From NCBI GenBank assembly GCA_963924555.1, contig OZ004585.1, positions 819,488 through 883,487 on the forward strand: a stretch of 64,000 nt of DNA. Reading direction: 5' to 3'. Position 1 is the stretch's first letter. Each line of letters begins with the position of its first letter. Made by a program: the position numbers and the translations under genes. Source of the stretch: Crambe crambe (lineage: Eukaryota > Porifera > Demospongiae > Poecilosclerida > Crambeidae). Of this stretch, positions 5,433 through 59,101 are shown piece after piece. Below the pieces are notes generated by a model, which saw only the letters and a program-made list of their open reading frames with translations, was not told the origin of the DNA and did no database searches.

Positions 5433-5480
5433 CAGCAGCAGGTTCTTTCGGAGGTTGTTCTGAATTAGTATCACAGTGTT
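5433..5480 (-). CDS. 48-nt linker exon, gene A
   Basis: The exon lies between an AG acceptor and a GTGAGT donor and encodes EHCDTNSEQPPKEPAAG. It starts and ends in phase 1. It differs by only a few bases from the exon at 27821-27868 in gene B. The sequence is Pro/Glu-rich and presumably an unstructured linker between domains. The identical position, length and phase in two paralogs support a real exon. Confidence 0.55.
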
Positions 5481-5521
5481 CTATGGAGAAAAAAAAATTG
5501 CAGTCAAATAATGCACGAATC

Positions 5522-5707
5522 CCTCATTCATCCAACTACTAGCTCCATCCTCACTAGCTCCATCCTCACTAGCTCCATCCTTAGTAGCTTCATCCTTACT
5601 AGCTCCATCCTCAATAGCTCCATCCTTACTAGCTCCATCCTTAGTAGCTCCATCCTCACTAGCTCCATCCTTACCAGCTCCGTCCTTTACACTAGTCTGG
5701 TCATGTT
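5522..5707 (-). CDS. Pentapeptide-repeat exon (K/E-DGAS), gene A
   Basis: A 15-bp minisatellite encodes about ten repeats of the pentapeptide KDGAS or EDGAS after the lead EHDQTSV, and ends in SWMNEG. The acceptor (TGTTCAG) is shared with the homologous exon at 59102-59296. At the place where gene C has a GT donor (AATGAAG/GTATGG) this copy reads GA, so the exon either uses another donor or no longer splices. The charged, Gly/Ala/Ser-rich repeat suggests a flexible spacer. Confidence 0.5.
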
Positions 5708-6401
5708 CTGAACATTAAAGTCAAAAATGCATCCAGTTGAAAAATTATATAATTATGAAGATACAGGTTTTTGCAATACTATAACACATGCAGGGTCATG
5801 GCCTTCAGTAGCTAATACAATACTTACACACCAAGACCTAGGTATGTATGCATGGTAGTCAGCACTATGCCTCTCCACTCCAGAGCCATGGCTTTTAAAA
5901 AATATCTTGTGTAGATATTTCTGCACACTGTGAAGAAATCTTTTGAACCTTCCTCCCCCGGGATAAGTATGTGTTCTCCCTAAATTACTCTATAAAGTGA
6001 AATCCTTCTATGTTTTGGGACACCTCCTTTGAACACATCAATCCCTCAATTTCTAATTAAAATTTTTAAGCCCTATAGCCATTTTATTATAGTCCCTTGA
6101 AAAGATGCGTACACGATTCTTTTAGAGAAGAACTATATATTCATACCAAGTGAAAAATAAAGTAAATAATGTGCCCTTACAGATACTCATCTTCTAGTTC
6201 TAAGAAAAACACAGATAGGTCAGTGAGGCTAGCAGGACACCATTTTTTTCTTTTCTACATAGGCAGCTACATAGATTGACGTTGCACAATTTGAACTAAT
6301 AAAGTTATAGAGCTGAGACTAAAGTAGAAAGGCTTCAAACATAGTCATGAAAATTTCATACACAGAGAGTCATGTGGTAATCATATAACCTTATGCTTTA
6401 T

Positions 6402-7786: not shown

Positions 7787-7861
7787 ATATTCTTAAAGAA
7801 AAATACTGTAACTGTGCAAAATGGAACTTAATTACACATGCCTAAAAAAAGGAATACTCAC

Positions 7862-8182
7862 CAGGACCAGGGTTAGTTTCAACATCACCAGCCAATATCA
7901 ATAACAAGGAAGTCACCACTTGATGATCAGAATAGTGAACAGTCCTAAGAACTCTTCTTCTTCGATAACACTTCCAGTTGTCTCTAAGAGGTAAAATCAT
8001 CATGGAAACATTTCCCCTTGCAATAGTGCAGCCATTTTGATGATTAGTACACATGGTACATGAGCAGTGTGGGCCATTACGAAAACGAGTCTTGGTCGTC
8101 CCTTCAGATTCAGTCACTGCAAGCTTCCACCACAATATAGTCAGCAAGAAGTTCAAATAAAGCTCATATCTCAGGATTTCAC
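7862..8182 (-). CDS. 2A-like recoding exon, gene A
   Basis: This 321-nt exon is phase 1 at both ends (TGTGTAG acceptor, GTGAGT donor). It reads EILRYELYLNFLLTILWW, a Cys-rich patch (CSCTMCTNHQNGC), a basic stretch (KCYRRRRVLR), then VVTSLLLILAGDVETNPGPG. The end matches the class-1 2A consensus DxExNPGP; such peptides make ribosomes skip the last Gly-Pro bond, releasing the upstream peptide and continuing with Pro. 2A-like sequences of the same kind are known at the start of sea-urchin NLR proteins, where the hydrophobic 2A can double as a signal sequence. The upstream product would be about 115 residues. Recoding activity is inferred from the motif. Confidence 0.85.
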
Positions 8183-8392
8183 CTACACACACAACAGGAA
8201 CAATAATTACTAAACACAAAGAACCCATTCACACAAAATTAAAATTGCAAAATACATCATGTAATAAATTATGTAATAAATCGCTGGAAGACACCATCAT
8301 GTTGGATTGGTTGTTCTTCTGATAATTCATCACACAATGAACGACTAGTTCAAGACAAACTTGGAAAGAGACAGCAGCCAAAATTATTATAC

Positions 8393-20958: not shown

Positions 20959-23137
20959 CGTACTAGAGGGTGTGGTACAGTGGGCTGGGTTTTGTTCCTA
21001 TGGGGATCATGTGTATTGGCCAGCTGGCCATCTCTGATGTAAGTGTGTTGACATGTAGCTTATTATGTATGAACTAGGCATGTTTCCAGAGGTCCAGTGA
21101 TACATTTGTTAACGTATAGTGTTGAAGATGTTTCTGTTTTATGCAGATTACTATTTTGGGAGATTCATGTGATTTTGAAGGAAGAACAAGTATTGGAAGA
21201 CGTTTGTACTATTCTGTATACTAGATGATCTTCATGCATTCTGAATTTAAATGTTATGGTGGTTTTGAAGGGAAAAAATGTTGTGTAGCTATAATAGATG
21301 GGTAGTATAGTAATGCACAGCTCAGCTAGTCAATTTCATGAGCCAGCCAGCTTCCGAGAAAACACTTTTATTCTGATTACAGTAGAAGTCCTTCACTTCA
21401 GTGAGATTTCGTTCTGATCAGGTTTCAAGAGCAAGAGTAGGAGCAGAACTTCATCTCGTAGATGAACTTCTGTTGCTTTTGAAACCTAAGACTCCTCCAG
21501 TTAACAGGGTAGAGTTTTGTTTGAACGTAGTGTAATGAGTGGGTTCTAGTAAATAGATACTGTACATAAAATAGATTATACATACTGTACCTTGAATAGT
21601 GTTGAAGATGTTTCTGTTTTGCTATTTCAGATGTGTGATTATTCGTTCTATAGTGTGAGTTCCAGGATGTGGTAAACTTGACTTCCTGTTACTTTTATGA
21701 GCATGCTCAGTTAAGTCTATTCTTTATTACTGTTGTTTTTTGTGAATAGCTTGTGTACAGAGGGCCTCTGCAGTGTCTGCACTGAGAGATTATTGTAAAT
21801 CCTTACCATTTGCTTGATCTATAACCATGAGGGGAGGAAAAATCCACTAGATTCTCCATGAAAACCGACATGTATAAGCATGCTCAGTACAGATACCAGT
21901 TATCCAAATCAATTTTTGATGTCTAAAGTGTTGCTGAAAATGTATTTCAAGTGAAGAAGTTAAAAGCATAATGCAAAATCAGAGAGTGCGCTAGGCACTC
22001 TCTATGTAAACACTTTTCATTGGCTTTATCTGAAATGAATAGATGTGTACCATCTGTTGCTATACTCCTCTGGGACATACCTTTTCCTTCCACCAGTTTG
22101 AAGGACTTGGACCATTTTTTTAAAGTTCAGAATTATATACATGAAGAACTTCACATATGCATGTGTCAGAATCCCCCACTGTTATTATTGTATTATCAGC
22201 AGTCACTGCTAGCGTATTGAGGTAAACAAAACTCAATATTAGTATAATAGAGTAGCTACTTGTTATTATCACTCTCTATTTAGCTATTTTGTCATTGTTA
22301 GAGCATGGTATACCTGCTAATATTCTTCATCCTCTAACTATGCATAATGGTCTTGAAAATGGTAGAATAAAAAAAAAAAGAACTATAGCTCAAAAAAAAA
22401 ATATGACATGGAGTTTTCATGTAGCTAATTAACTAGGCCATGAAGAGGAAGTGGCAGTATACATGCTTCATAGTAAAAATTTCAGAAAATGTTTGCACCA
22501 CAATTTACCTATATTATAGCTAGCTAACTACAGCAGTGGTCTGTAATAATTGCCCCATGTGCACTTCATCACACACCTTATTGGTATATTCAACTCAGTC
22601 TCTGGGTTTCAAGACTTTGACCTACCTAAATCTGAGAAGCTTGTAGTAAAGTAGTTGTTAATCTTGGCCTCTACGTTCCTGACTAACCTGGAGAGCTCCG
22701 AAGTCCTAGTTTCTCTTCTGTTCATCTTTCATAATGGCATCCAGAAGTAGAGAGTTCAAGGGTTCACTTGTAGGAGCCCCATCCCATCATGTGACAAATA
22801 TTATCAATCATGCTATATACTCACAGCAATGTGTTGGGGTGGTGTACTTCAAAACAATTGCTCTTCAGTTTCACTCTTAACCCGAACAAGTTTTCAAAAT
22901 GAACTTAAAAGGAAGAAAATTGTTGCAATCTGGCAGGTGTGCAGGTGATTAGTTCATAATAAGATTACAAAACAGCTGGTAGCTACATTAAAATATTTCC
23001 AAATGATTTTTGTTTAATAAACTAGCATAAAGTTTCATAATTGAAAAATGGATGTTCATGTGGAATCTCTAGTTCTTTATTTTCTCCTCTTGCTGGGAGG
23101 AGGGTCCTCACATGAAGGCAATTTGGAGCAATCACAT
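20959..23137. other. CLASRP 3' flank and spacer
   Basis: No gene is recognised. At 21345-21500 lies a shuffled fragment of the CLASRP RS exon (GAGAAAACACTT, CAGTAGAAGTCC, GAGCAAGAGTAGGAGCAGAA). Copy 2 carries the matching fragment inverted (48168-48395). The segmental duplication ends near 21973, and a CTCTCTATG hairpin end follows at about 21980-22010. Confidence 0.6.
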
Positions 23138-23345
23138 TCACATGCAGTGGGATCTGCATATATTATAGTGGCAAGTATTAATGATGCAACTAGTAAGACT
23201 GTGATCAAACGTACGTTTCTTTTCAAGGACTTCACAAACAGCCTGAGCACACTGACTCCGTTTAGCCTTTACAAATACTTCCAGTAGGTTCTTGTATGTA
23301 GCCTGAAGCAAACACTTACTCTTCCATGTCCTCAATGCTGCTTGC
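23138..23345 (-). CDS. C-terminal half of the Death domain and end of gene B
   Basis: The acceptor TTCAG leads into QAALRTWKSKCLLQATYKNL, then LEVFVKAKRSQCAQAV. This is the last two helices of a Death domain (ALRxW..ATYxxLLExF). It joins in phase 2 to the exon at 23399-23606. The frame reaches a stop at 23138; a GTACGT donor at about 23214 offers an alternative ending. Confidence 0.7.
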
Positions 23346-26300
23346 CTGAATGAAATTAATAATTAATAGATAAGTCAATCGATTTTCATGATCCACACCT
23401 TTGTAATGGAGGTTTGTCCTGATATTTCTCTCTGATATCATAAATATCAGTTGGAGTCAGTTCCAAGTGAGAAGCAATCTCTTCCCAATTAGTTAAGTGT
23501 TCTGCTATTTTAGAAAGGTCCTTTTCCACCCCTTCATGACCCCAGTCCAACTGCCGCTCCAAGTAGGGGCGTACACAGGGAGGGAGGGTTGCTTGTAATT
23601 CTTGAGCTGAGAAAATAGCGTATAGTTACATTTAAGCTATATAGCTACTTTAGTTACTAACTCACAAGACTTAGTGTAGCCAAAACTAGATTGCCTATTT
23701 TCCTCAATGGACTGTGTCTGTAACAAAAATTACTGATTTTCATTTAAAGTTTGAAATTAGTGCCTTACTGTGGTCTCTGACATTGCTGCAGCATCTGCAC
23801 AAGCTTCAGGATTTCTGGTAGGATAATTTTTTCCTGTAATTCATGGATCAAAGGTTACAATCACCCCTTCATAATATAAAAGCATTAATTATCATGCATG
23901 CATGCTTACTTATGATCTGCATCCAGTGTTGCTTTTTATCTGATTCAGTATGTATTCCATGGCTTGTGTTAATTGAGCAGGTTTCATATTTACCACATTG
24001 GGAGATAATAGATTTATGCTTGCGATCAGTAGCAGTGCAGTTACAAAAGAAGGCTGCCTTGAAGGAGATATCACCAGGATACAAAACTTTCCATGATGCT
24101 TCAAGACCATTCTTGACATCATCAAATACTCTGTGGCAAATGTCAGCTAACTCTGATTCGAACATGCAATCAATGTGGATCTCGATACATTCAAATGAAG
24201 CAATTAGTGTGACACTTCCTGGCACTCCTCCTGGAATTGAAAATTCAACACAATTTCGATAAAGGCAAGCTGGTTCCTCATCAATGAGACTCGGAGACCA
24301 ATTATGATCATTGTTTAGAGCAGCAATAAGTGAAGTAAATAGGCCATTTGGAAGGCATCCACCATCCAAGTAGAGAAGCAGAGGCGACAAGAGTTTGGAA
24401 TTACAACGGTAACTCTGTACTTCACTCTCACTTAATTCTTTCAAAAGAGAAGGCATAAAATATATTTCATTTTTCATATCTGCGATAGCTAATAATTCAC
24501 GAAGAATATCCAAAAAGTTCTCAGGAGTAAATATATCAGAGTAGAATAAAGGGAATTTACGAAGGAATTGAATGTTTATAAAACCCTTATTTGTAAACAT
24601 CAATTCTTCATAGGTAGGGCCAATAACATCTGTTCCTTGCAACTTAAAGCTATGCTGTACTAATTCCGTAAGCTTCAGAAGCACAACTTGTGTATCACAG
24701 AAAATTAATTCAGGTAGGCTAGAATAACTGCGGAAAATGTTGAGCTTCAGTAAATGATTAAGAGCAGCTTCAAAGATTCTGTCACTCATATTCAGTTTCT
24801 TGCTAATTTTTGAACATGCACTTCGTGTGACATAAAGCATGTTTTTCTTGGCAGCATATTGACGAATATGCTGTTCTAACACAAACCAAGCTAAAGGGAT
24901 CGATTCAGGTTCCATACAGTTTTTCATAACACATTTTCTGAATTCAGATACTACAATTAGATCTTTCTTTTCTGGCTTCTTGCAATTTAGAGGAAATATC
25001 AAACTATCTCGTTTACGAAATACCAGGTTTGACGTCAGGATTGGACCTAATTTGGTTCTCAGTCTTGAGTTTTTCATTTCTAAAGTTTCTGCAGGAGGAT
25101 TCTGCTCATATTCATCATGATGAGTGCCAACTATCATAAAACTAGGAGATCTTTCCGAAAGAAGACAAGATTTGGAATGAATTGTACGAACACAGCCTTC
25201 CATAATTTGTAAATTGGAGTGCTCTGATTGATACGGTGAACCACACTGCTTGCCAGATTCATCAAAGAAAGCTATCATAGGCTTTTCATCGAGACTTTCA
25301 TTTAACTTGGCAAAACAAACACATGAGGAGATATTCTTAACAAAAGCAGGTAGAAGCTGGAGAAATTGAGGCTGTCCTCCCGTATCAATTATGTACACCC
25401 AGTGGACGTCAAACAAACGTTTAGAGCCCTTTGATCGACTTATGAGTTGCAAGAGGTTATCATCTTCCAATTCAAACTCATCATTAGAATTATGAGAGTT
25501 CACGTTAGGTTCAGATAATTTTGTATCAGGATCTGGTCTATCAGGATTACTAGAATCTGACTGATTGTAACTAGTTGAAAGAAAAGGGTTTTGAATATGT
25601 GAAGGTTGATTTGATTTTGATGATTCTTCTGCTGTTTGATCAGATACTCCTACCTTTATGGCATCAGCTAGCATTGTTAAAAGTTGTTCAGGGGTCACTA
25701 CTTCCCATTCCACATTATCTGAATCACCATCGATAATAGCTCTAGAAATGGATGCACTACGTATGGCCGCTTCCGCCAGAGGAGTACTCACACGTTTATC
25801 TTGTAAGGGTAGATTAAGAGCGACACGTTTAAAACTTGATTTTCCTGATCCAGCAACACCAACAAGTAGAATCACTACTGATTGAGATGTAACGTAGCCT
25901 TTCTCCATTGCATTGCTAAATAATTCTTTCACTGCATCATCTAACATGAGAGAATACAATAAAATATTTCCGTGAAATGAAAAAAATGTAGGGATGATCA
26001 TTACTCAAAAACAAGGGTAGGGATGAAGGATGGAAATGGGATCAATCTTTGTTCTCTATATCCAGCCAACAATCCCTACATATACGTTGGGTAGACGTAT
26101 ATGTAGGGATTGTTGGCTGGATATACAGAACAAAGATTGATCCCACTTCCATCCTAACCGGTTGCAATTCCTCCATTACAGTCTGGTAGACAGTGCCTGC
26201 TCTCATAGTCATTGTAAGTTTGCTGGGTCTCAACACTGTCTTGCTGACTGCTGCCACCAGAAAACCCCAATAAAAATGTTTTATTAGCAAGAAGTTTTAA

Positions 26301-29300
26301 CCAGGAGCAGGTGAAGCTCAAAGAGTTAATATTTTTGTGGAATGCAATAATCAAAATAGTTTGTGGGGGAAATAATTGTGGTCATAGACTGTGCACCCCA
26401 TCAAGTATGTGCATGCACGATTGATAATGGCTAACTCTAGTTCTATGGTTCTCTTTGACTGGCCCTGCCCACTGGATAAGTTTTTTTTTGGCTTAACCAT
26501 AGATTGTATAGACTACGTAACCAGGATTGGAAATGCAATATAAACTACCCAGCCACTCCTTATTGCGCATGCCCGCAAAAAAACATATTATCAAATTTGG
26601 GTATCAAGTGTGCAGCCATTGATCCTGGGCATGGCAGTGATGGCAGTCAGAAAGAGGGGCATGACGGCATGGCCAATGGGCGAGAAATGGCAGTGGAGGA
26701 GATGGTGAGAGTAATGATAGAAGACAGACGTCGACATGAAGTGGAGCTGACATTGGAGTAATGGCAATGGGAGGAGAGAAAGCAATGGGAGTGGGAATTT
26801 AAGGAAAGATATCGACATGAATAAGAATTGAAGGAGATGGAGGAAAGTGGCGCAATTGAGCCATCTCATAGTGAATGGGCTTCACCAATTGTGGTAGCCA
26901 AAAAGAAAAATGGGAGGACATTAACATATCATTGTATTATTTTATTAAGATTATCACTGTGATATTTATTGTATCACTGTGACGTTTATCATTTGTGATA
27001 TTATTTGGTTCATGTAATCCTTTGACCCTTTGAGAAATAAAAAGTTGTGCTCTTGACTTGACTTGTCATAGTATGAACTAGCTTCTCTCTAGTTGGGAAC
27101 CCCACCCTTTGTGTGGCATGGTTCACATATATAAAACAAAGACAACAACAACAACCATAGCTAAGACAATGTAAGAGTTCAAAATGAACCATTCATGATT
27201 CATCAAGCGGATTCTGCTACCTGCACTAAGTTGCCCAAGAGTGCCAACTAAAGCCTAGGAAAGAGCAATAAGGTATCAAAGGTAGCGCACAAGTGTATAA
27301 ACTAGAAAGCCAAATACCTTAGTATTTGGTGATTTTCCATATATGACTCTCTCCTATTGGATTCCCCATGCACGAAGCTTTTGTGGCTGACTAGCTAGCT
27401 TTAGTAAGCCCTCCTAAGCTGTAGGCCTCAGTGAACTCTCAGCAAACAAGCAATGACATGGATAAGGGTCTCCGATATTACACGTTAGTATGTGAAGTCA
27501 AATTACATAGCTAGGCGTTTTGTTCCACTAGCCTCACAATACTAGCTGAGCAATGGCTGAGAAAGATATGCTGGAATTACTGCACTCTTACCTGAAGCTA
27601 CCCAAAGTATGTAGAGATTGTTGGCTGGCAAAGATTGATTCCATTTTCCCTACCCTTGTTTCCTTACTTTTTTGAGCTATTATTTGGAAAAGGAGTAACT
27701 GGAATACTTTTGTATAGCTAGCTGGTCAAAAAAATCAGCTAGCTGGATAGCCAAGCTGCATACCCTGGTAAATTAAAGCCTTGAAAATTTTCTAGCTATA
27801 ATTAGCTACTTCATACTCACCAGCAGCAGGTTCTTTTGGAGGTTGTTCTGAATTAGTATCACACCGTTCTATGGAAAAAATAATTTACAGTCAAATAATG
27901 CAAGCATAATTATAGCTGCATCTGTAAATTGGGAAATTTTCTTTGATAATAATTCATGTTAAAACTTTCATGTTTTAATTTATTTTCGTTGTTACTTTAC
28001 ACTATTTTTTACACAAGGTGATTAATTAACCCTCTGCTGCATGGGCAAGGGTTATAGTACTCAGTCTGTCTGTCTGTCTGTCTGTCTGTCTGTTACAACT
28101 ATTCCGGAGCCAGTGGATTTTTGGAAAAAGGCAAAGAAGGGCACAATTCCAGCTCAGTACTATACTACTATAGCCTATACTCCATATAATGTACACTCTG
28201 TGCTGCCGACCATTACCTAGGCTACACTATAAGGTGAGTTGATTAGAGAAACAGTGTAAATCTCATAGCTAGCTGGAGTGACAAGTCTACGACGGCATTT
28301 AGCTAGCTGCTGCTGTCTTACCTGCATGCAAAATCATATCTGTGCATTTCTCCAAGCAGTATATTTTTTACATGCAGGCACTGATAATGAGAATGTGGAG
28401 TCTATAGTACAGACACTGCTAGCTAGCTCAACAGTATGCAATGCTTTATAGATGATTGATTCAAAATAAGATACTCTTCCTCATTGGTGATCTGCTCAAT
28501 ATCTGCAAACACGGGCACAGAGTTAGTGCTTTTCATTTTCATGTAATCAATTTTCCGGTTGTTGAACGAGACCATGAAACTTTAACCTAACTTTAAAGTA
28601 ATGGTTTAACTTTAACCTGGTCTCAAAGTTTGAAACTGCCTTACTTGAGGGAAAATCAGAGAACCTTTGCAACCAGCAAGCCCCCATTAACCCACAAAGG
28701 GATAATAACATAACTCATTATACCTCTTATTAAATGAGCAAGTACGTTCAGTCCAATATCTTCAAGCACAGAAATCAGAGTCACCCAGGACACAGGTTGC
28801 CTCCCATTCCCGTGCAGCCATTCTTGAAACACACGGTAATTAATGTCTTGTGCGTTCTTCATCAGTTCTCTCTCTATGGCACTGATACGTGCTCCAGTCT
28901 GGTCTTCCAAAAGGAGAATCCCAAAGTGAAGGTACTTTGTTCCAACTTCTTTAGTCAAGTCCACTTTAGAGTCTTGCAAAGGAAAGCAGATGATGTCCAT
29001 CATGGTTGGCACTATAGAATCAAAATAATGATAGAAGACCATTCACACTTGAGTTCTTGGACATGAAAGGAGTAAAACTGGCTCCCTCTAGCATCAACTA
29101 CTTGACGCCCGCATGATTCTTTAATGAAGAACTTCATATACATACCAAGTGAAAAATAAGCAAAGGGGGGAGGGGGGGTAAACCAACTTCTTAGAAGTGG
29201 ATAATAATAATAACAAAAATGATCAAGATTCCATTTGTGTAAGGAATGGTCTCGGCAAGGGCTAAATGAAATGAAAAATATAAATGAATAGTGATTAACA

Positions 29301-32300
29301 AGTAAGATTAAGAAGGGGTTGAGAGGCATTCCAAGCTACTTCTCTCCTAGCCATAAAAACACGCTGTGAAGTGGAGATGGTGATTTTCCCTGAAGGATCT
29401 AACAATGATTTGAATGCATCTTTGGGAACAGTTTGTGTAAGCAGGACAGAGTTCCAGGTTGGTGGTGGCCCAAAGCACCAATTTCCATTGCCAGAAACTT
29501 GGGAGCATAACCTTGGGCCTCTAAGTCACTTAGAAGAAGTTCGTCTTGAGGTCGTGGGCCTTCTTCATGGACTCCAGTGAGTTGAAGGGGACGGCAAATT
29601 CTAGTAGGAACACCTCCTTGTTGTCTCCCACAAATACGATATCAGGTCGGGCTGAGGTCATTAGAATATTCTGGGGGGCAGATTGTCTGTGGCCCTGCAT
29701 CCATCTAGGTCACCATATAAGTGAACCCAGCCGAAAGATGTCAATGACAGAATCTTCTGCAGTACACTATTATGTCGCCAAGTGCAACGACCTTGTGAAA
29801 GAGCTGTTGGACAGGCATTCTAAATGTGTAATGTTGTTGGTGCTGGTGAGGAGCAAAGGTAGCAGCCTTATATCTCCAGCATGCAAGGTGGGGAGAGCAG
29901 CTCTGATAATAAAGGACAGCTGTCCAGCTGGTAGGCCTTGGACTATTCTTGACCAAACCTACATGCATTCAAAGACTTCAATGCACAGTGAGCTCGCTCA
30001 AGTTGTCATTCCAATGTTCCCTCTCGGCCTTCGGTTGGATGGCTTTGGTGGTCCTTGGTAAAGTCGACCAATTTGGTTGGGTGGGAGCAGAGGGATTGCA
30101 GGATTGGATTGAAGGCAATCAGAAATAGGAGTGACAGAGTGTCACCTTGAACACTCCCCTCTTGATTGGGAATAAAAATTCTTTGGTATGTTTTTGCTCT
30201 TATGACACTTATTCTTCTAGTTCTAAGAAAGGTCAGTGAGGCTAGAAGGATGCTATTTTTTCCCTTCTCTATAATTATAGGTAGCTACGTAGATTGATTA
30301 AACAGCTTAGACTAAGGTAGAAAGGCTTCAAACAGTGCTAGTCAGTCTTGAAAGTTTTCATACACAGAGAATCCACAGCAGAGTCATGTGGAAAATCACC
30401 AGAACTAAGTCCAGCTTCTTATAAGCTTACGCTTGAAAATATCTACGCTACCTTCGGTATCTTGTTGCTCTTCTCTGGGCTTAGTTGGCACTTTGTAGTG
30501 CCAGGAAGCAGCTTCTAGTTTGGAACTCCACCCACTGATATTATGTGTAGATGTGACTGTTCATGTTGCTTATTCAGCTTTTCCACTAAACTATTTAGCA
30601 TGTAGTTGTTCTTGGGAGAAAAAACTACATACAAAATAAACAAACCAAAAAGCCCATCCCAGAGCTACTACTCTCTGATCTGGTTTGCTGATACTTTATT
30701 TCTTGCGAGAAAACTCACTATCATCGGATCGTCTGCTGACTATCTTTTTCTTGTGAGAAAGCTCACCATCATCTGATTCATCATCTGGTTTGCTGACACT
30801 CTTTCTCTCAGGAGAAGCAGTGATAGTCTGTGCAGAGGGAAGGGAATGAAAACACATGCAGTGAATAGCAATTTTTGAGTCAATTTCTGGCCTTTGAAGT
30901 GAGAGTCTGAAATGGTTAAAGGCTAGCTACAACACACATGCCCAGTATACTGACTCCAGGTCCAGCATGTATAGTTTGGTGCAAAAGCTGATGGTGTAGC
31001 TGATCTTTACTTATCTACTTATATCGACTCCTAGTTTTGCTCTAATCACCTAACTAAATAAGTGGTGATTTGCTTTCTGTGGAGATAAAGTGCCTACGTC
31101 TAGTAGCCCATAACCTGATGGACTATAGTTTCTAACCCCCTTCTTCCCCCTCCCACAAATTCTTCTATACCCAACATAATGAGTCTTTATCAAAATCGAT
31201 AAAGCAAAAACATGCCATGAGGAGACTGAAAGAATGAAAGATTGGAGGTGAAATAAGGAAAACTTACATTCTCAGATTTTCCTCTTGATTGCTCCAAACT
31301 CGTGTAAGTACTTGTCACCAGTTCTAATTAAATAATAAATTTAATTTTTACTTCAATTGGTCCTTGGTTGTATAATGAATTAGTCATTTTGTTATAGCGA
31401 AACAGCAAGAAGTTCTTCTGAACGTCATCCCTAGCCTCATCCTCCTTTTTAATTATGATTGTGGAGGGCCTGGTACGCGAAGCCACGTGGGGATAGAACC
31501 AACTTAATTGGGCGTGGGCAGTACACAAGAGCATTATGACCCTGCCCACACATTTGGGCTACTTGGACTGGAGTCTACTGGATCGACTCAAGGCACCACG
31601 CCAGCGCACACTGCATATAGACTAGGGTAACATATTCAATTGGCGAGCGAAGCAGTTGGTGAAAGTCATTTGTACTTCAACTTCTTAGGCTAAGATATTG
31701 CAGTCAGGATGAAGTGGTGGTGCAGCTGCATACACAAGAGGCTGTATAATGCTTACCACAAGTACTTAGAAAGCCAAGCACATACAATCCACTTAGGTAA
31801 GCCTAACACCTCTATGACAAAATGCTGTAGAAAGTAATAAGCTCTAGCTGTTTGTTGCTAAGTGATGTGGGCGTGTTTCATTTGTGGGGTCAAAGGTCAA
31901 AAGAAGGTATGTGCATGAATAAGGAGTAAGCTCCGCTTACCAACTAATACTAGCTAACTTCCCCCACTTAGACTTCATAGAAGCTACTGTGAATGATTAT
32001 CCAGCCTACTAGAGCCTACTACAAAGTGCAGGCCAAGTTTTAAGACCAGGGAGCTTACCGTTTCAGAACTATGGCAAGCAGGTAAGTCGCTAGATTCTTC
32101 TTCTTCTTCTTCTTCTTAGATAACCATATCTTGCGAACCACTCAAGCTATTTCAGGATAAATCCATTCCAAATTCTACCAGCTACGATCTCTAATGGTTC
32201 ACAAAATATGGTTGTCTAAGAAGAATAGTGAGTGAGCGAGTGACTCTCAGGTTATGACTCATTGAAATTATATATATATATATTGTGGCAAGTATTACAA

Positions 32301-35225
32301 CTTTCTATGTATGTAGCTGCCTGCCAGTTACACAGATCAGAAGCACAAATGAATTAGAGCCATTACTTATCAGCTCTAGAAATCATGTATAGGAATACTA
32401 GCTCGCTCGCTCACTGTCAAATGTTGCACATTGCCTTAGTATAGAGAAGAAGAATCCAGCGACTTACCTACTTGCCATCAGCAAACAAGTAGGTATTAAC
32501 TACAAGGAAAATCATACAGATCTAGTAAGAGTACCACAGTATACCTTTCTTAGACCAGTACTTAGGGCAGTACTTTTCCTGTATTTGCTTTGCTATTCCT
32601 GACTCATCCACGAAAGGGTCGTTAAGAACTGTGACCACAGATTCCCAGGATACTGGAATATTTGTATTCCCATCCAACCAATAACTCACAGTTGCCAGGA
32701 AACGTCTGGGAGTAGAGGGGTGATCACGTTCGAATGTTGCAAGTTTGTTTCTTTTGATGCCCAACTGGATGCCTATTTCAAACCATTTGGTTTGCACTTT
32801 AGCTAGTTCACTTAGCAGAGTCTTTACATCAATATCTATGAAAACAAAGATTAGATTTTAGAATACCCTTACAAAACTACTATTCCTACTTCACTCCTAG
32901 GCCTCCTAATTTCAATAGCTACACCCATTTAGGAGGCCTAGGAGTGAAGTAGTTTTTGCTCTGGGTACGGGTAAGGGGTTACTTGACTCACTTAGGGGGA
33001 GAGAAGTAAGATATAGGTGTGGTTATTAGGAGGGCTAGGAGTAATATTAATAGTAATAATGCAGCTAAACTTTATGGCTATCCCTACTTCAGTTTTTATT
33101 TAGAAGAAATTTTTTGCGCTCACTTGTACTTAGTACATGCAGGGAAATCAGCTGTTTACATACCACTAAGTGGTGGTCATTCACACTTGAGTAGCTTCAA
33201 ACCACATGTTGATATCCCTGCATACATTGTGCAGTGTTTCACATGTACTAAACACATAAGTTATATTTTGAGATATCAGGCGGACAACTTTCCAAAATAT
33301 TTTGCTATCTTGGTCATGGTTGTACTTAGGTTTTTTTTGTTGTTTTTTTGAATAGACCGTTGGAAAGCTCTCTAAAAAAGCTGCATTTTGGTGGTAAAAA
33401 AAGGTGGTATGAAGCCTAGAAGTTCGACGAAATATTTTCGAAATCACCAAAAAATTGTGGGTACCAACTCCCTTACATCTCCACAAAAAGTAAGGCACCA
33501 CTTAAGTAAAGGCATGAAAGATTGGAACCACAAATTTGGTAAACAAAAGTGAGATAGGGAAACTTACATTAGATCTTTTTCTTGATGGCTTCAAGGCTCT
33601 CATGTCAGTACTTATCTCCAGTTCTAATTAGACAAGTAAAATTACCAGCTTTCAAAAAAAATTTTTTTTTACTATCTGTGAAACTTTTATACCTCGAAAT
33701 ATACCCACCATAGCTATCCTTTTAATGACTTTCACTCTTTCGTATTTATAATTATGATTATGTTTTATTACACTTTTTTTTCCTTTTGTAGGCAAGGAAT
33801 CTTGTTGGATCTCTATACGTATGTACATTACATACCGTACGTGAAAGGAAAATGCTTAATAGTGAAACTGAAAACATGCAGCTGGACTCACTTGGTCTAT
33901 GTCTGCTTGCTATCTCTTCAGCTTCAGCAGTGTTATTCCCTCCAACAGGGTGTTCAACAGAATCGACCAGAGCCTTCCAAGTTGGTGGCTTAAAACAACT
34001 GGTAGGATAATTCCTCTTTAGCCACTCCGTAATCACTCTCCTCATAGCTGCTGCTGGACTCAAATGTTGCTCACAAATTTCCTCTAGCTTGCCATTTGGT
34101 ATATCGAGCCTCTCACCTATTCCCTCATAACGTGCCAGGACATTCTTCAGCTCATCCATTACTTCATTAATATCATCCAAATCTGCATTTGGGGGGGGGG
34201 GGGGGGGGGGGGGGGGATCAAAACAGTTATAGAAATTCTTGCCTATCACTTGGGCATGCTAAAATAGAAACTGAGTTTGGGACCCCATAAAAGTCCAATG
34301 GAAGTCTTCTAGCTCTACTTGTTATAGCTATAATGGGCAAAGAGATGGAAATCCATGGATGTTCATCTAAAGAACCCACAAGAGTGACACAGGTTTCACT
34401 ACAATAGTGAATTTTACAGAGAAGTACACTTACCTAAAATGGTGGCATCATCTGCATCAATACCTGCAAAAGAGATAGAGAGTAGTGATTGTCTGGTGCT
34501 TAATTTCACCACAAATCATTGTGTTAGGGTTTCTAACACAACCCAAGATACAACTCATGCAAAATAGATCTAGCTTTCTTGAAAACTCTTAACAGTGCTT
34601 GACTCCACTGGCACATGCCTCAAATACCCACTAAATTGAAGGAAAAAAATATTTACCAGGACCAGGGTTAGTTTCAACATCACCAGCCAATATCAATAAC
34701 AAGGAAGTCACCACTTGATGATCAGAATAGTGAACAGTCCTAAGAACTCTTCTTCTTTGATAACACTTCCAGTTGTCTCTAAGAGGTAAAATCATCATGG
34801 AAACATTTCCCCTTGCAATAGTGCAGCCATTTCGATGATTAGTACACATGGTACATGAGCAGTGTGGCCCATTACGAAAACGAGTCTTGGTCGTCCCTTC
34901 AGATTCAGTCACTGCAAGCTTCCACCACAATATAGTCAGCAAGAAGTACAAATAAAGCTCATATCTCAGGATTTCACCTACACACAACAGGAACAATAAT
35001 TACTAAACACAAAGAACCCATTCACACAAAATTAAAATTGCAAAATACATCATGTAATAAATCATGTAATAAATCTTTGATGCTGGAAGATACCATCATG
35101 TTGGATTGGTTGTTCTTCTGATAATTCATCACACAATGAACGACTAGTTCAAGACAAACTTGGAAAGAGACAGCAGCCAAAATTATTATACGCAAGTGTT
35201 GACAAGTGACCATCTTGGTTCTCAC
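23138..35225 (-). CDS. Gene B: 2A-like / triple Death / Roc-COR / Death protein
   Basis: Exons in coding order: 35192-35225 (start), 34657-34977 (2A-like), 34434-34463 (micro-exon), 33892-34182, 32545-32835 and 28724-29011 (Death domains), 27821-27868 (linker), 23910-25940 (Roc-COR), 23769-23833, 23666-23717, 23399-23606 and 23138-23345 (Death domain split by an intron). Phases match at every one of these joins. Extra linker exons may lie at 30.5-30.8 kb. If the 2A motif works, a short peptide of about 115 residues is released and a multi-domain cytosolic GTPase with four Death domains follows. Roc-COR proteins act as nucleotide switches and Death domains as oligomerisation adaptors, so an immune or cell-death signalling role is inferred. 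It could be two genes, split between 28.7 and 25.9 kb. Confidence 0.6.
23399..23606 (-). CDS. N-terminal half of the C-terminal Death domain, gene B
   Basis: The exon encodes a linker (LPPCVRPYLERQLDWGHEG) and then DLSKIAEHLTNWEEIASH, LELTPTDIYDIREKYQ and DKPPLQR. WEEIASHLELTPTDIYDI is a canonical helix 2-3 region of animal Death domains. It is 208 nt, phase 1 to 2, and the domain is completed by the next exon. Confidence 0.75.
23910..25940 (-). CDS. Roc-COR-like GTPase exon, gene B
   Basis: This single 2031-nt exon (677 codons, phase 1 both ends) encodes a P-loop GVAGSGKS after VVILLV, a Ser/Asn/Asp-rich insertion, the G3-like motif DTGGQPQFLQLLPAF, a G4-like VGTHHDE, and FPLNC in the G5 region. 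A COR-like part follows: a winged-helix segment (IPLAWFVLEQHIRQ), then LLLYLDGGCLPNGLF, CLYRNCVEFSIPGG and FECIEIHI. Order and spacing fit the ROCO class, although THHDE replaces the usual TKxD and no kinase or LRR is seen. The 5' boundary is set at CATGTTAG/AT because sequence further upstream belongs to a MITE. The longest frame runs 20 codons past it into that MITE and is not used. Confidence 0.8.
25975..26155. repeat. Palindromic MITE abutting the Roc-COR exon
   Basis: GGATGGAAATGGGATCAATC..ATATCCAGCCAACAATCCC is followed by its reverse complement, around ACGTTGGGTAGACGT. The left outer part (GAAATGAAAAAAATGTAGGG) reaches to within about 35 bp of the exon acceptor. The full-length relative is at 52030-52355; fragments are near 27610 and 61260-61480. 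Confidence 0.8.
26500..26935 (+). mobile_element. Ty3/Gypsy-like fossil fragment (broken)
   Basis: The right end encodes a stretch like the entry to a Ty3/Gypsy reverse transcriptase (SGAIEPSHSEWASPIVVA, then KKKNG). A charged helical region precedes it. The fragment is short and broken, with no LTRs or other domains recognised, and is clearly an old remnant. No matching copy was seen elsewhere in the window. Confidence 0.5.
27821..27868 (-). CDS. 48-nt linker exon, gene B
   Basis: The exon encodes ERCDTNSEQPPKEPAAG between CCATAG and GTGAGT, phase 1 both sides. It is nearly identical to 5433-5480, and flanking intron sequence (CCTGGTAAATT, CTAGCTATAATTAGCTAC) is shared as well, so the two belong to one duplicated module. 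Confidence 0.55.
28724..29011 (-). CDS. Death-domain exon 3, gene B
   Basis: This 288-nt exon (CTATAG acceptor, GTATAA donor, phase 1-1) reads LTKEVGTKYLHFGILL, then LEDQTGARISAIERE, then YRVFQEWLHGNGRQP, then SWVTLISVLEDIGLNVLA. This is the Death-domain pattern with the conserved W in helix 5 (SWxxLIxxLE). It is more diverged from the other modules than they are from each other, which suggests an older origin. Confidence 0.75.
29345..30185 (-). mobile_element. LINE reverse-transcriptase 3' remnant
   Basis: The minus strand reads QGDTLSLLLFLIAFNPIL, which fits RT block 4 (GxxQGDTLSPLLF), then further down SARPDIVFVGDNKEVFLLEF and LLSDLEAQGYAPKFLAMEIG. The latter is the C-terminal region seen after RT in some sponge and cnidarian LINE-type elements. 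Several stops and frame changes interrupt the frame, and the N-terminal RT and endonuclease are missing, so it is a dead 5'-truncated copy inside a gene B intron. Confidence 0.6.
30452..30830 (-). CDS. Linker exon region, gene B
   Basis: At about 30700-30830 the minus strand encodes SVSKPDDESDDGELSHKKK, an acidic/basic repeat also found at 60705-60830 (VSKPDESDDGEQKKR, VSKPDDESDDGS). At 30452-30534 lies a degenerate copy of the WHYKVPTKP exon of gene C. Whether these are spliced into gene B is unclear because the second one is out of frame. Confidence 0.35.
30840..32540. other. Intron or spacer with dispersed repeat
   Basis: A repeat at 31975-32230 (GGAGCTTACCGTTTCAGAAC, GCAAGCAGGTAAGTCGCTAG, then (TTC)n) recurs in reverse orientation at 52835-53030. 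A possible small exon at about 31270-31325 (ELVTSTYTSLEQSRGKSEN) has a weak relative at 33560-33620. Nothing else was recognised. Confidence 0.4.
32545..32835 (-). CDS. Death-domain exon 2, gene B
   Basis: The 291-nt exon (TTCATAG acceptor, GTATAC donor, phase 1-1) encodes DIDVKTLLSELAKVQ, then KWFEIGIQLGIKRNKLATF, then ERDHPSTPRRFLATV, then SWESVVTVLNDPFVD and IAKQIQEKY. WFEIGIQLGI..KL and SWESVVTVL fit helices 2-3 and 5 of a Death domain. It is the same length as the exon at 33892-34182, suggesting tandem exon duplication. Confidence 0.8.
32860..33500. repeat. MITE and dispersed repeat
   Basis: The first part (to about 33130) is the CCTATTCCTACTTCACTCCT family in palindromic arrangement. 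The second (33150-33480) is a repeat with GTGGTCATTCACACTTGAGTA, CATTTTGGTGGTAAAAAA and GTGGGTACCAACTCCC, whose relatives lie at 8480-8820, 35290-35625 and, with an additional inverted end, 63640-64000. Confidence 0.65.
33892..34182 (-). CDS. Death-domain exon 1, gene B
   Basis: This 291-nt exon, phase 1-1, encodes DLDDINEVMDELKNVL, then YEGIGERLDIPNGKLEEI, then VITEWLKRNYPTS, then PPTWKALVDSVEHP and AEAEEIASRH. It is the direct paralog of 6649-6939. Its acceptor follows a run of 26 C on the coding strand. It sits next after the micro-exon, so after 2A recoding this would be the first folded domain. Confidence 0.8.
34191..34216. repeat. Homopolymer G26
   Basis: Twenty-six G on the plus strand form a pure C polypyrimidine tract directly before the Death-domain acceptor (CAAATGCAG) on the minus strand. 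The homologous position in gene A has an interrupted C-rich tract. Confidence 0.95.
34434..34463 (-). CDS. 30-nt micro-exon, gene B
   Basis: The exon encodes GIDADDATILG with phase-1 boundaries (TTTGCAG acceptor, GTAAGT donor). It is the paralog of 7485-7514 and 62619-62648. Confidence 0.7.
   Translation of the reverse strand, partial: VLMQMMPPF
34657..34977 (-). CDS. 2A-like recoding exon, gene B
   Basis: Exactly 321 nt, phase 1-1, and nearly identical to the gene A exon: EILRYELYLYFLLTILWW, CSCTMCTNHRNGC, LLLILAGDVETNPGPG. Its donor is GTAAAT rather than GTGAGT. It marks the lower limit of the second copy of the 14-kb segment, so gene B's first exons share recent history with gene A while its downstream exons do not. 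Confidence 0.85.
35192..35225 (-). CDS. Candidate start exon, gene B
   Basis: ATG opens MRTKMVTCQHL with a GTATAA donor in phase 1, as in gene A. It fits the 2A exon without loss of frame. Confidence 0.45.
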
Positions 35226-42171: not shown

Positions 42172-42949
42172 CTATCCTACCTTAGGTACATTATAGTTAG
42201 CTAGCTGGTAATTCACACCTGTGCTCAATAAATGCTCCATCTTGAGAGTGTATAAAAAGATGACAGCTATCAACAACCACCATAAGGTCAATATCAGAGG
42301 AATGAACCAGACATGGCGGGAAATGGTCGGGAAGCTTCTCTGCTTTGGCTTGTGTCCATGGAAACAGTAATACTGCCTCAGGTGCTGGACCCGAGACTTC
42401 CACAGGTCTGCCAGTTGAGACCTCAGCATCCTCCTAAAGTGATAAAGAGAGATCAAAACCAGAATACGTAAGCTTATGCTAGCTAGATCTTACCCGTGGA
42501 AGGCTTATCACTCCTTTTTCTCTTTCTTTAGTTGCTTAAAAGACTGACAACAAAACTTTGCACGAATCTGCCCACGATCACGAATATGTAGCCTCGTCCC
42601 CAGGCCCTCCCTTTTTACGCGTATACGACGAGGCTTACCTAGTACCTTTATGCGCATGCGTTCAAACCTTGAACTTTGAACTCAGTTCAGGGTGTGGAAG
42701 TGGAGATCAAGGATGAGTAAACAAGGAAAGAACCCACGTAACACCCGGGCTTCCTATGCTGTGCAAAGTAGTTCATGATGGACACTAATCTGGCGTAGCC
42801 ATTAGATGGACACCTGACACTCTGAAGTAAAATGCTATCATGAACACCTTCATTACAGAGTCAGCTACAACATGTATGGGGATGATCACGGGAACAATAT
42901 GGAAGGTCAGTATGAGAAAAAACAAAACCAGAGTGAACACCACACCTAC

Positions 42950-49558: not shown

Positions 49559-50250
49559 CTACCCTCCTTCAACCCCAACTAATAATATTTTAGTGTCATC
49601 AATTCCTATATATTTGCTCAGATGTAGCCTGAAACTGAACAGATCACTAATCTTGTATTGATCTTGATTTTTGTCAATAATAAAAATAGTGCTAAAATGA
49701 TCAGTAAGAACTGACTGACACATCTCGCTGCGATCAATTACTCTGCACTTTGCATATTCTTCAAAGATCTTGGTGTAATTATCTGCATTTCTTTTGTCTT
49801 GTTCGGATCCAAACTCTTGAATGAGTTTACTTATAAGAATGTCAAAATTCATGAAAGACTGATATTCATAAACATTTTTTATGAGCTTATTCACATCGTT
49901 ACTTGCTTTTATTTCATCCCTAGTCTTAGAATTAATTGAAAGTATATCTGAGATCATATGACACCGATGGGAAAAATTCTCATCATTAGTTGTTTTTAAT
50001 AAAGTTTTACGAAAATCATCAAGCAATCCGAAGAATTTCCACTTTATATGTTCTGTTTTTTTCTTTATACGTGCTAAATAGCTTTGTTTAGGAGGCCAGT
50101 TAAATGCACCTTGGCTTAGTGAAGATTGTTCAGAAGGGTAGATCAATTTTGCCACTTCTTCTTGTGGGAGATAGCATATTTCAGGGCTTAATATGTCTTC
50201 TTGTATATCATCATCTTGTACGTCATGTGATATAGCTGGAGTGTGATGAT
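49559..50250 (-). CDS. Conserved helical domain, gene C or separate gene
   Basis: An open frame runs from HHTPAISHDVQDDDIQ through CYLPQEEVAKL, QGAFNWPPKQSYLARIK, FSHRCHMISDILSI, VYEYQSFMNFDILISKLI, FGSEQDKRNADNYTKIF and SKYIGIDDTKILLVGVEGG to a stop. A helical part (xxFMNFDxLxxLIxxFGS..Y..) followed by an LxxxIGIxxxxLLLVGVExG part recurs in many invertebrate immune-type proteins beside Death and NACHT-like domains; I know no name for it. The family normally continues after VGVExG with a short beta strand, so this copy may be truncated. The relative at 54663-55363 lies upstream in the same direction. Confidence 0.6.
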
Positions 50251-51449
50251 ATGCATAAATAAAAATTTGATGATTGATGGATAAGTGGGGGTTAAAATGA
50301 TACGTGTTTGTGGTACATTATTAGTACAAACCAAGTAGTACATAATTTGAGCTTGAAATTGTTGATTGGGGCGAGCCTGAGCAAGCCCTACACTAGTGAG
50401 TTGGTGTAGAAAAATTGTATTGAGATCTATTTAATTTTATTATAGTTGTACGTTCTAATAACATGGTTTTCGACCATCAGGTAAATCTTGTGCATACTCA
50501 CCCAATAACGGGTTCAATCTTGTTTGCTCAACTAGCTACTAAAGAATGGATCAAATTAAAGCTGACCTAGAAGGGAGGAAGAAGGACTCAGAAAGCAAAG
50601 GGTATGTTGAGATAAGGCAAAGCACAGAGAAAAGATAGGCTATGTTGGAGCACTTTAAGGAGGGCCATGCTCCAAATCCTGGGAGAGAATGCAAACCGGA
50701 GATTGTCTTCAGAGATAACAGAGGCCAAGCTCCAAATCTTGAGATAGAATGCAAACCAGACTTTAGAAACAACTGAATAAAGAGAGGCCAGGCTAAAAGA
50801 TGCCAAGCTCCAAATCCTGAGAGATATTATTAGCCTCTCCCACATTCACTGTTTCACCCTTGCTAAAGAAACATGAATTACGCTCAGGCTTGCCTCACAA
50901 TGCATTGCATTCGTCTAGTATGTTTGTATACCATACAAGTGAGCGTAAGGTAACGGGGGGGGGGGGGGGGAGGGGACCCCCCTTGACGTGTTGACTCTTT
51001 TACATATGTGTTCTAGAACTTTATGAGCTAGGTGATTTGTGACTATTGCAAAAATAGAGCTCTTGTTTTATGTGTTCTAGCTGTCATATCCTGAAACTCT
51101 ACTTCTACTAAGTGCCAAGGGGCAGTGCTGGAGGTGACTATGATCTATGGTACGTATACATCTTACTAGTAGCATGCGCAAACACATGTGCATGATCATG
51201 GCCTTACAGCTCAGCCAGCCAGTTAGCTAGCAGTCTAAGCTGTGAGAGCAGCCAAGTTAACGATCGTCAGAGAAAGTATACTGGGAGCAAGAAAGCCGAC
51301 ATAAAAAGTCCTGAGAAAACTATGACCACCATACTAGTCTAAAGGGTTGGCTACACACTACATATTAAAATATTAACTTAGCTAGCCTGCTATAGCAGCA
51401 TAGAAAGTCACTGATGATTATATCAAATTATAAAATGAAGGGGAAAAAA

Positions 51450-54432: not shown

Positions 54433-54662
54433 CTGTTGTTGCGCCTATAACCAAGTAGCAATGCTTTGATCTTATTTACAAGTAGTATACAAAGTACATA
54501 TTATAAATAACCTTTAGAAGAATCAGTAGGAGTGGCACTTCCATCGGACGTGGATGCACATCCAGGCATTAAGTACTGTAGCAAAGGTAATGAAATAGCA
54601 TGGGTAATCTTACTGAAGAAGGCAAGGGATTAGTTACAGCTGTTACATGCATGAATGCTCAC

Positions 54663-55363
54663 CAGTTTCATCTGATAAATGATCTTATCCTCTATCATTA
54701 TACAGATTATATCATCTTGTTTAAAGAAAGATTTTGGTGTATGCGAGCTCTTCAGTATTTGCATAGCAGATTTCGTTGGAATAAGCAAGACTACTACAAG
54801 TGATCCAATATAGATTTTTTCGATGAGATAAGAGAGGGAAGGAAGCAGGTAATTGCCAGCAATAGACCTCCAAAGCTTATCAATATAGTCAAGACTTTCT
54901 TCTGTTACCAGTACTTTGAGTTTCATAGTCAACTTAGCACAATAGTCCTCGTCATATCGTGCTATACGATCATCTGTTTTGGCAATTTTCTTATCATCTT
55001 TGCATGCATCAAAATACTCTACAATTTTAGTTGTAGCAAGAAATCCTGTCAGGTTTTCTTTGTATTCTTTCATCCATACATTGAGCTCAGCATCATCACC
55101 TCCAAATTTTAATATGATAGCTTCCAAAGGAAAATAGTTCATATAGTCCCATAATCTGTTTCTCGAAATCATTTCAAAAATCTCGACTATGCCAGCTGTC
55201 TTAGGAATGAAATCACCCGGATGAAACATATTGATAATATACATTAAAAATTCCTTCCTGTCTATTTTTTTGGATTTCAACCTCCTTGGAACCCTACTGA
55301 CAAGTAGACTAAAGTTGCTGTTTATGGTAACAAAACTTGCTTTCTTGACTATAGTAGCTGAAG
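54663..55363 (-). CDS. Conserved helical domain exon, gene C
   Basis: A TTGCAG acceptor in phase 1 opens SATIVKKASFVTINSN. The 701-nt exon continues LLVSRVPRRLKSKKIDR, LWDYMNYFPLEAIILKFGG, YKENLTGFLATTKIVEYF, then LWRSIAGNYLLPSLSYL, YIGSLVVVLLIPTKS and FFKQDDIICIMIEDKIIY, ending at a GTGAGC donor. The two-part organisation matches the exon at 49559-50250 and here includes the terminal beta part (SLVVVLLIP). The function is unknown; the domain commonly occurs downstream of Death domains in such genes. It is probably spliced to the Death-domain exon at 58585. Confidence 0.6.
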
Positions 55364-55419
55364 CTGCAAGAAATAAATGAACAATTAGCAAGTTATGTAT
55401 GTGCTTTTCTGCATGCATG

Positions 55420-56175
55420 CTCGAATACTACATTGGGTTGGTGAGTGAAGCCATTTCCAGGCTTCAAGAGACTGGTCATTGTGCTGGAGCATTTTTTTAA
55501 AACATGCAGGCAGCAACCAGGTCAAAAATCTCGAGTGATCTTCTGAAGAGGACAGATTGTTAGATTGCTACCTAAACAATTCAACCATGCTTCATGGAGA
55601 TGCCATGGAGCTAGTCTATCAGGGGTGTATCCACAGAATTTTGAGTGGTCCGGTGTGCTTGTGCATGGAAATTTTCGGATGCACCACTTTTTTGATCAGT
55701 AAAGTCATGCTAGTGTGAATTCTGCAAAAATGGATGATTAAGGTGTGTGGTGTTTCATATAAAAGTGGTCCGATGAAAACCAGACCAACCGGAGTGGTGG
55801 ATACACCCGTCTATTGACAATATTAATGTTACTATCTTGCTATTGGCTCCTAGAAGAGTTTGCTAAAGTATAGTTAGGCTTCAGAATGTACGTATAATGC
55901 TTTCCAGAATTAAATCTCCCTATTATTTTTTGCTTGATGTTCAAAAATACCAGATCTTGTCCTCCAAGAATCTTTAGCTACTCCTCAAAATAGTACCCAT
56001 GGAAGAGATCCTAATGGTTCCCCAACCAATATTGATTTTAGCTAAAGAGACTAGCTATACAGACAGGAAGAGACTGTGGTAGGAGCCATTCAATTTCACA
56101 AATGGTTATACCCAGGTCTGGAAACCCAGACTGTTGATGATGAAGTGCTCATGACAGAGTAAAAGACCACACACA

Positions 56176-58854: not shown

Positions 58855-59101
58855 CTGGAGGAAAAAAATGAGCACCATTGGAATTTCATACTAGTAGTAC
58901 CATAGGCTGGTTGCTAATAGAGAATGACCCATGCTCTATTATAAGGTGAAGTGACCTTTCGATCACTCAAAATACATGAAAAAAAGCCAAGGTGACTTAA
59001 ATATGAATTCTGAGGCTCCATGTTAAAGGGTATGCAAAAAAATATTGAGGGGTTCCGACTCTAATATTAATTGTTGTGTCTGGTAGCTGTAATTACCATA
59101 C

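Follow-up and report, generated by a model that had tools for sequence, protein, structure and literature searches.

The closest known systems to the genes described here are the 2A-led NLRs of the sea urchin and the ROCO-Death proteins of placozoans. DAPK1 is a ROCO protein with a Death domain, and 2A sequences in APE-type non-LTR retrotransposons are said to have been reported by Odon in 2013. In Strongylocentrotus purpuratus, 85 of the 241 NLRs carry an N-terminal 2A signal sequence (SpNLR2A; Roulston 2016, excerpts of PMC4981915), and the unskipped product goes to the exocytic pathway (PMC4981915, same excerpts). Placozoan ROCO proteins carry LRR, TPR, CARD and Death domains (excerpts of PMC11378527). 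For Amphimedon, a lineage-specific expansion comprising 357 Death-like/TRADD-N proteins has been described (Kaur 2021, PMC8195603, in part). The use of StopGo in cellular genes is only rare according to part of a 2026 structural paper (PMC12846837).

The window, that is, the whole stretch of 64,000 nucleotides that was analysed, corresponds to C8:819488-883487, and the genome searched comprises 143 Mb in 119 contigs. From its Death-rich gene content, the animal is probably a sponge. An initial annotation of the window had proposed a 2A-led ROCO-Death gene and had regarded such genes as not previously known; likewise, in the open-access literature we found neither a 2A-led ROCO protein nor a sponge 2A leader in print. 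Our main reading, to which we assign a probability of about 0.68, is that the locus belongs to an amplified immune-type family in which a 5' module encoding a 2A-ended membrane peptide is placed before Death(-ROCO-Death) modules, and in which the skip ratio would set the partition between soluble and tethered product. The modules, their order, their open frames with GT-AG joins, their conservation and an intact 2A in the copies read are present in the genome. With hand-picked splice sites 15 coding exons can be chained on the minus strand, with GT-AG at every join and no internal stop, to give a product of 1386 aa. The features are as follows.

42219..42429, minus strand: coding exon 1, phase 0 to 1; from homology, the splice model and 72 matches genome-wide
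34657..34977, minus strand: leader exon, phase 1-1, ending in LLLILAGDVETNPGP; 88 genome matches
34658..34681, minus strand: 2A/StopGo octapeptide DVETNPGP; skipping is predicted to occur between Gly176 and Pro177
34434..34463, minus strand: 30-nt exon, IDADDATIL, phase 1-1; matched at 23 of 46 leader loci
33892..34182, minus strand: Death-fold exon D1, phase 1-1; in 19 of 46 leader loci
32545..32835, minus strand: Death-fold exon D2, phase 1-1; Pfam Death E 0.17
31268..31323, minus strand: linker exon, phase 1-0; the C5 paralogue has an exon of the same type
30767..30827, minus strand: linker exon, phase 0-1
28724..29011, minus strand: Death-fold exon D3, which may be internal (weak donor AGAG/GTATAA) or terminal (open frame up to a stop at 28656)
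27821..27868, minus strand: short linker exon, phase 1-1, membership uncertain
23910..25940, minus strand: Roc-COR-like GTPase exon with GVAGSGKS, DTGGQPQF and GTHHDE, phase 1-1
23769..23833, minus strand: exon of the splice model, phase 1-0
23666..23717, minus strand: exon of the splice model, phase 0-1
23399..23606, minus strand: first half of the C-terminal Death domain, phase 1-2
23215..23345, minus strand: second half of the C-terminal Death domain, phase 2-1
23077..23153, minus strand: last coding exon, HPTACECDCSKLPSCEDPPPSKRRK and then stop, preceded by a 61-bp intron

In this model and in that of the C5 paralogue (see below) the exons were chosen manually, led by homology and open frames. 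The model of the locus excludes candidate exons at 33.6, 28.5 and 26.2 kb; the one at 33.6 kb resembles the linker exon at 31268..31323. For the short linker at 27821..27868 a 90% identical stretch exists in copy B, where it lies closer to the leader than to the GTPase. A phase-matched chain of minus-strand exons had been claimed before. The chain itself, with its GT-AG joins, exists, but the phase match carries little weight: seven of the 15 exons are of phase 1-1, so that phase agreement is weak evidence for one gene, and the only informative pairs are 1-0/0-1 and 1-2/2-1. Both ends of the earlier chain had to be moved. Its 3' end at 23138 is replaced by the last exon, which reaches 23077 beyond the 61-bp intron, and its 5' end at 35.2 kb is replaced by the coding exon at 42219-42429. 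The exon at 35.2 kb was tried as coding first exon and rejected because it is not conserved in frame (by eye, the copies show a one-base frame change and differing donors) and because 65 of 67 leaders pair with another first exon. A 5' UTR exon may be located directly upstream of exon 1, at about 42.5 kb.

Two diverged leader copies showed an upstream exon, and this pointed to coding exon 1. The exon opens with MLRSQLADLWKSRVQHLRQYY, an ATG and a basic N-terminus, and its hydrophobic segment WFIPLILTLWWLLIAVIFL is the strongest hydrophobic stretch of the whole protein. The leader exon encodes 108 aa, in the order second hydrophobic segment, Cys-rich basic stretch and 2A; its genome matches were collected at E<=0.01, and those spanning all 108 residues are without internal stop. 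Three of them are situated in the window (7860-8183, 34655-34978 and 62826-63149). Those with E above 6e-11 (21 of 88) were then dropped. When the remaining 67 were compared with all 72 exon-1 matches, 65 of these leaders had an exon 1 of their own, one-to-one, on the same strand and at less than 20 kb. Joined together, exon 1 and the leader would encode a membrane-type peptide of 176 aa ending in DVETNPG/P. A short N-terminal peptide had been anticipated; the short upstream product stands, but the first exon had been missed, and the membrane-type character with it. A Cys cluster, CSCTMCTN...C, at about 34.8-34.9 kb is kept in many leader copies and is possibly metal-binding. Exon 1, the leader and an SR-rich plus-strand ORF are also part of a tandem duplication that covers about 6.6-20.6 kb and 33.9-47.5 kb; its copies are mostly 26.7-26.9 kb apart and mostly 98-100% identical. 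Elsewhere in the window, tandem repeats with a 15-bp period at 5476-5748 and 59056-59343 are related to each other.

The dN/dS ratio is 0.29 for exon 1 (15 copies covering most of the exon) and, for the leader, 0.22 over all 30 close copies and 0.40 over 19 more diverged or representative copies, indicating purifying selection on both exons. The ratio is highest, 0.41, in the last third of the leader, which includes the 2A and where divergence is very low (pS 0.054). At the same loci pS is 0.101 for the leader (17 loci) versus 0.219 for D1 (18 loci); the lower value suggests that leaders have been homogenised or that D1 has diversified. Of the 20 leaders scored, 19 had a second hydrophobic segment (octanol sum of -9 or lower), and that of the locus itself is moderate (KD 1.16). 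Lysines and arginines number 8 and 11 in the flanks and one between the two hydrophobic segments. Basic flanks on either side suggest a membrane hairpin with both ends cytosolic.

The octapeptide DVETNPGP, as claimed from the start, is intact at 34658-34681 on the minus strand. It is likewise intact in all 46 leader copies read (42 DVETNPGP, three DIETNPGP, one DIEVNPGP), a sample biased towards intact octapeptides since most copies were chosen for a match that reached the exon end. Elsewhere in these leaders the identity drops to about 40%. A codon pattern for D[V/I]ExNPGP has 150 sites in the genome and none when reversed, so the octapeptide is more abundant than expected by chance; a stricter pattern, in which the octapeptide is followed by GG (the context of a phase-1 donor), gave 101 sites and again none when reversed. 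Outside the family, at least 23 sites with other codons are located on C9:306738-572049 and at least 16 on C10:4680471-4980601, with the minus strand as the coding one throughout. In the single C10 copy that was read, a short signal-like 2A leader, MTQAPGGCSKQRILKGLGVYLFVAFSITIICCLLHCAGDVETNPGP, precedes a Death-like exon and an immunoglobulin-like exon (by eye); Pfam gave no match for its Death-like exon. A viral origin of the leader was also considered: eight pattern matches occurred in viral contigs, none of which was confirmed by tblastn, and this origin was rejected.

From the sequence we infer splicing, translation, skipping, topology and a signalling role, which could be combined as follows. 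The two hydrophobic segments of the leader would insert as a membrane hairpin with cytosolic N- and C-ends. At the 2A, where separation of two products is predicted, most ribosomes would release the membrane peptide and continue to a free, Pro-initiated cytosolic Death(-ROCO-Death) protein, whereas non-skipping ribosomes would yield a Death(-ROCO-Death) protein tethered to the membrane. With the skipped product free and the unskipped one tethered, the protein would be a Death-domain assembler switched by its GTPase, and the skip ratio would determine how much of it is soluble and how much tethered, or would supply it with a membrane partner at 1:1. In the literature searched we found no translational switch acting on receptor location by skip ratio.

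We considered three other roles for the leader. It could act as in the sea-urchin NLRs, as a dual-function signal sequence that directs the unskipped product to the secretory pathway and leaves the skipped product in the cytosol. For this there is an experimental precedent (excerpts of PMC4981915), the position is the same, N-terminal and ahead of Death domains with a 2A-like octapeptide, and the one copy read of the second family, on C10, places a short leader directly before a Death-like exon. We nevertheless regard it as rather unlikely: the leader at hand measures 176 aa and contains a long basic Cys-rich stretch besides its two hydrophobic segments, and the basic flanks favour cytosolic placement of both ends. 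If the first segment alone inserts, the signal-sequence role gains. An inactive 2A, retained as a relic in a leader that remains fused as an ordinary membrane anchor, is improbable. Activity of a 2A relies on more than 14 residues (PMC12846837, in part), which leaves room for such a relic, yet the octapeptide of all 46 copies is intact next to sequence that has diverged to about 40% identity, and the C9 and C10 arrays (one C10 copy read) retain it with different codons. The lowest probability, a very small one, is given to an exonised piece of a non-LTR retrotransposon without a role in these genes. Against it, the exon keeps phase 1-1 splice sites in the copies examined, has a start-codon exon of its own in 65 of 67 cases and is followed by the small exon in 23 and a Death exon in 19 of 46 loci; a leader dN/dS of 0.22, the lack of a relative in viral contigs and the local arrays that hold many of the copies (15 of them, all minus, on C8:0.60-1.09 Mb) also speak against it. 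Its basis is that APE-type non-LTR elements are reported to carry 2As and that LINE-like debris is close by, at 29.4-30.3 kb (by eye; no Pfam match).

Downstream of the leader, the 30-nt exon was traced with a 10-residue query at E<0.5 and D1 at E<1e-3, two of the D1 matches being cut by the locus end; 16 of the 46 leader loci extend only about 1 kb past the leader exon start. Four Death-fold modules had been recognised initially. The C-terminal one, spliced from two exons, is firmly a Death domain (42.6 bits in Pfam Death versus a cut-off of 22.6), but the other three stay below the cut-off, with E values of 0.12 for D1, 0.17 for D2 and 0.022 and 0.038 for D3. In a Pfam scan of 11 of the 18 D1 copies five matched, the best at E 0.013. 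D1 is under much weaker constraint than the leader (dN/dS 0.69, 18 of 19 matches). For D2 a 30% identical stretch is found in the third leader copy of the window. That copy, 62826-63149, together with 49559-50317 and 54630-55427 (all minus), seems to belong to a gene with TRADD-N-like exons (by eye).

The motifs GVAGSGKS and DTGGQPQF were confirmed in the exon at 23910-25940, and the two sites are conserved in 12 aligned relatives, which have GxxGxGKS and D[T/S]GGQPQF there. We take the P-loop, D[T/S]GGQP and THxD of this exon to be its GTPase motifs. The exon has at least 66 matches in the genome (from the best 65 of 461 candidates scored). Among the aligned members (13 of 20 GTPase records, that of the locus included) six matched Pfam Roc, the best at E 5.5e-4, and two matched Pfam COR-A, the best at E 1.7e-4. 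A Pfam search for Death, Roc and COR, the check proposed initially, thus had a mixed outcome, the C-terminal Death domain exceeding its cut-off but the GTPase exon of the locus itself matching neither Roc nor COR. No PDB entry was matched below E 0.6 when the GTPase alignment was used for a profile search. The dN/dS of the exon is 0.24-0.40 (18 of 20 records), as is indicative of purifying selection. In the 1386-aa product no LRR or kinase match was obtained with Pfam; at E<=0.1 neither this product nor the 1400-aa product of the C5 paralogue matched NACHT or LRR, nor did either match reverse transcriptase. A relic of a C11-type GTPase was sought at 32.5-26.0 kb of the locus, and none was found at E<=1. 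Just upstream of the GTPase exon, at about 26.03-26.16 kb, lies an inverted-repeat element, ATCCAGCCAACAATCCCTACATATACG..., with relatives in neighbouring copies.

That a family with the architecture 2A leader, Death, ROCO-like GTPase and C-terminal Death exists is very probably correct, judging by two paralogues. The C5 paralogue has 11 exons in a hand model with GT-AG at all 10 introns and runs from ATG to stop over 10.1 kb. Its order is exon 1, leader, small exon, D1, two linkers, three Death-like exons, GTPase and a C-terminal Death-like exon, and an intron of 0.56 kb separates the GTPase from the Death-like exon that precedes it. The C5 GTPase is 31% identical to that of the locus, and its Roc match scores 18.5 bits in Pfam, below the cut-off of 27. 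One of the three middle Death-like exons exceeds the Pfam Death cut-off (8.7e-6, 26.2 bits) and the other two gave no match; the C-terminal one is just under it (5.9e-4, 20.3 bits). Relatives of the last two middle Death-like exons stand in the same order ahead of the GTPase of a C15 locus, near which no leader was found. In the C12 paralogue the leader, the small exon and D1 are followed, after a gap of about 1.0 kb, by a Roc exon with 39.7 bits in Pfam, over the cut-off of 27; leader, Death and Roc all lie within 4.5 kb.

The large C12 exon (C12:1887102-1889446, minus) joins TRADD-N-like and degenerate kinase-like parts, both recognised by eye, to the Roc part. It stands behind the 2A leader and the Death exon, and its frame continues past the sequence examined. 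The exons of C12 and of the third copy in the window presumably resemble TRADD-N; Pfam gave no TRADD-N match for either. In the third copy the last TRADD-N-like exon stops right after DDTKILLVGVEGG, where its C12 relative continues into the kinase-like and Roc part, and the third copy is probably a truncated one.

Across the genome a ROCO exon was found downstream of at least 40 of the 67 leaders, at a distance of 3.7-33 kb (limit 45 kb, before the next leader or exon 1), and the strands agreed in 40 of 40 cases. The ROCO set for this pairing consisted of eight close GTPase matches, 71 more and 54 Roc matches with a frame of at least 600 aa among the matches listed. A mirrored control gave a same-strand ROCO exon upstream of at least 31 of the 67 leaders, as a result of the tandem arrays, and strand agreement was therefore set aside as proof. 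No downstream ROCO exon was present for 27 of the 67 leaders among the GTPase and Roc matches listed, and no nearby leader was found for most ROCO exons on C11 and C15.

The initial annotation had placed the whole architecture in one gene of the window. As a gene family the architecture is supported, by the C5 and C12 paralogues, but a single transcript at the locus itself is in doubt, as D3 looks terminal; we put one mRNA from leader to GTPase at somewhat less than an even chance. Nearly even odds also attach to the presence of two genes. The first, leader-D1-D2-D3, would finish with the D3 exon, its GTPase having been lost; the second would be a ROCO-Death gene, located at 27.7-22.9 kb and starting from a 5' end of its own, and the family architecture would then exist elsewhere. 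The terminal Death exons of nine ROCO loci on C11 and C15 share 65-77% identity with D3 (dN/dS 0.08-0.28 versus four of them); all nine run into a stop 4-5 codons on when the frame is continued, and the possible donor AGAG/GT is common to three of these exons and missing from six. If D3 were the end of a gene, a polyadenylation signal might follow, yet neither AATAAA nor ATTAAA occurs within 0.72 kb 3' of it. Further observations favour two genes: the 27.67-22.87 kb block, introns included, was duplicated as a unit in copy C and as two pieces in copy B, which has TRADD-N-like pieces between leader and GTPase; units of the same GTPase type on C3 (two copies) and C1 have no leader that we could find; and at C8:974 kb a GTPase of this type, 95% identical, is located behind another leader-D1-TRADD-N-like-Roc unit, which ends in a Death-like stretch. 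Against a separate ROCO-Death gene, the GTPase exon begins at a phase-1 AG in 20 of 20 records (19 loci, by eye), and a possible ATG just 5' of it is absent in two of eight close copies, so that coding exons probably precede the GTPase; no alternative first exon was found for it, and the C5 paralogue keeps the whole order in one frame. Between D2 and D3, at 29399-30284 on the minus strand, there are broken frames resembling a non-LTR reverse transcriptase by eye and without a Pfam match; these possible LINE remains also favour two genes.

Returning to the amplified 2A-led family, we tentatively extend the main reading to StopGo as a standing immune device. The family studied, the 4.7-Mb array on C10 and perhaps the 0.3-0.6-Mb array on C9 would then all place a membrane- or signal-type peptide with a 2A before Death-domain genes, and in the family studied the hairpin and the 2A skip ratio would form a translational switch between tethered and free Death-ROCO protein. 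If true, with 150 octapeptide sites, of which many are arrayed, and with a 2A before Death-like exons in both families examined, 2A recoding would be routine in animal immunity beyond sea urchins. Such genes would also provide natural leader/receptor pairs for testing what the skip ratio controls, and 2A-led immune genes would be extended from NACHT-type to ROCO-type switches.

With the 2As of APE-type non-LTR retrotransposons the locus shares a 2A within a cellular genome; it differs in that multi-exon genes follow, with Death exons where found, and in that there is no reverse transcriptase match. The Amphimedon proteins have one to three N-terminal Death-like domains and then C-terminal modules that vary; the C12 copy and the third copy of the window look similar, but the C12 copy adds Roc, and the string NPGP is absent from the main text of PMC8195603. 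A Roc-type GTPase and a Death domain on one protein are common to our family, the placozoan ROCOs and DAPK1. In contrast to the former, for which the excerpts of PMC11378527 do not mention a 2A leader, Death-like exons here flank the GTPase on both sides, and the product has no Pfam LRR or kinase match. The likeness to SpNLR2A consists of a 2A-like octapeptide at or near the N-terminus, a large innate-immune family and N-terminal Death domains (excerpts of PMC4981915). The sea-urchin proteins, however, are of the NACHT-LRR type and their 2A is itself the signal sequence, whereas in the family described here Roc-COR-type GTPases or other modules follow, and a two-exon leader of about 176 aa has, as read from the DNA, two hydrophobic segments at a clear distance before the 2A.
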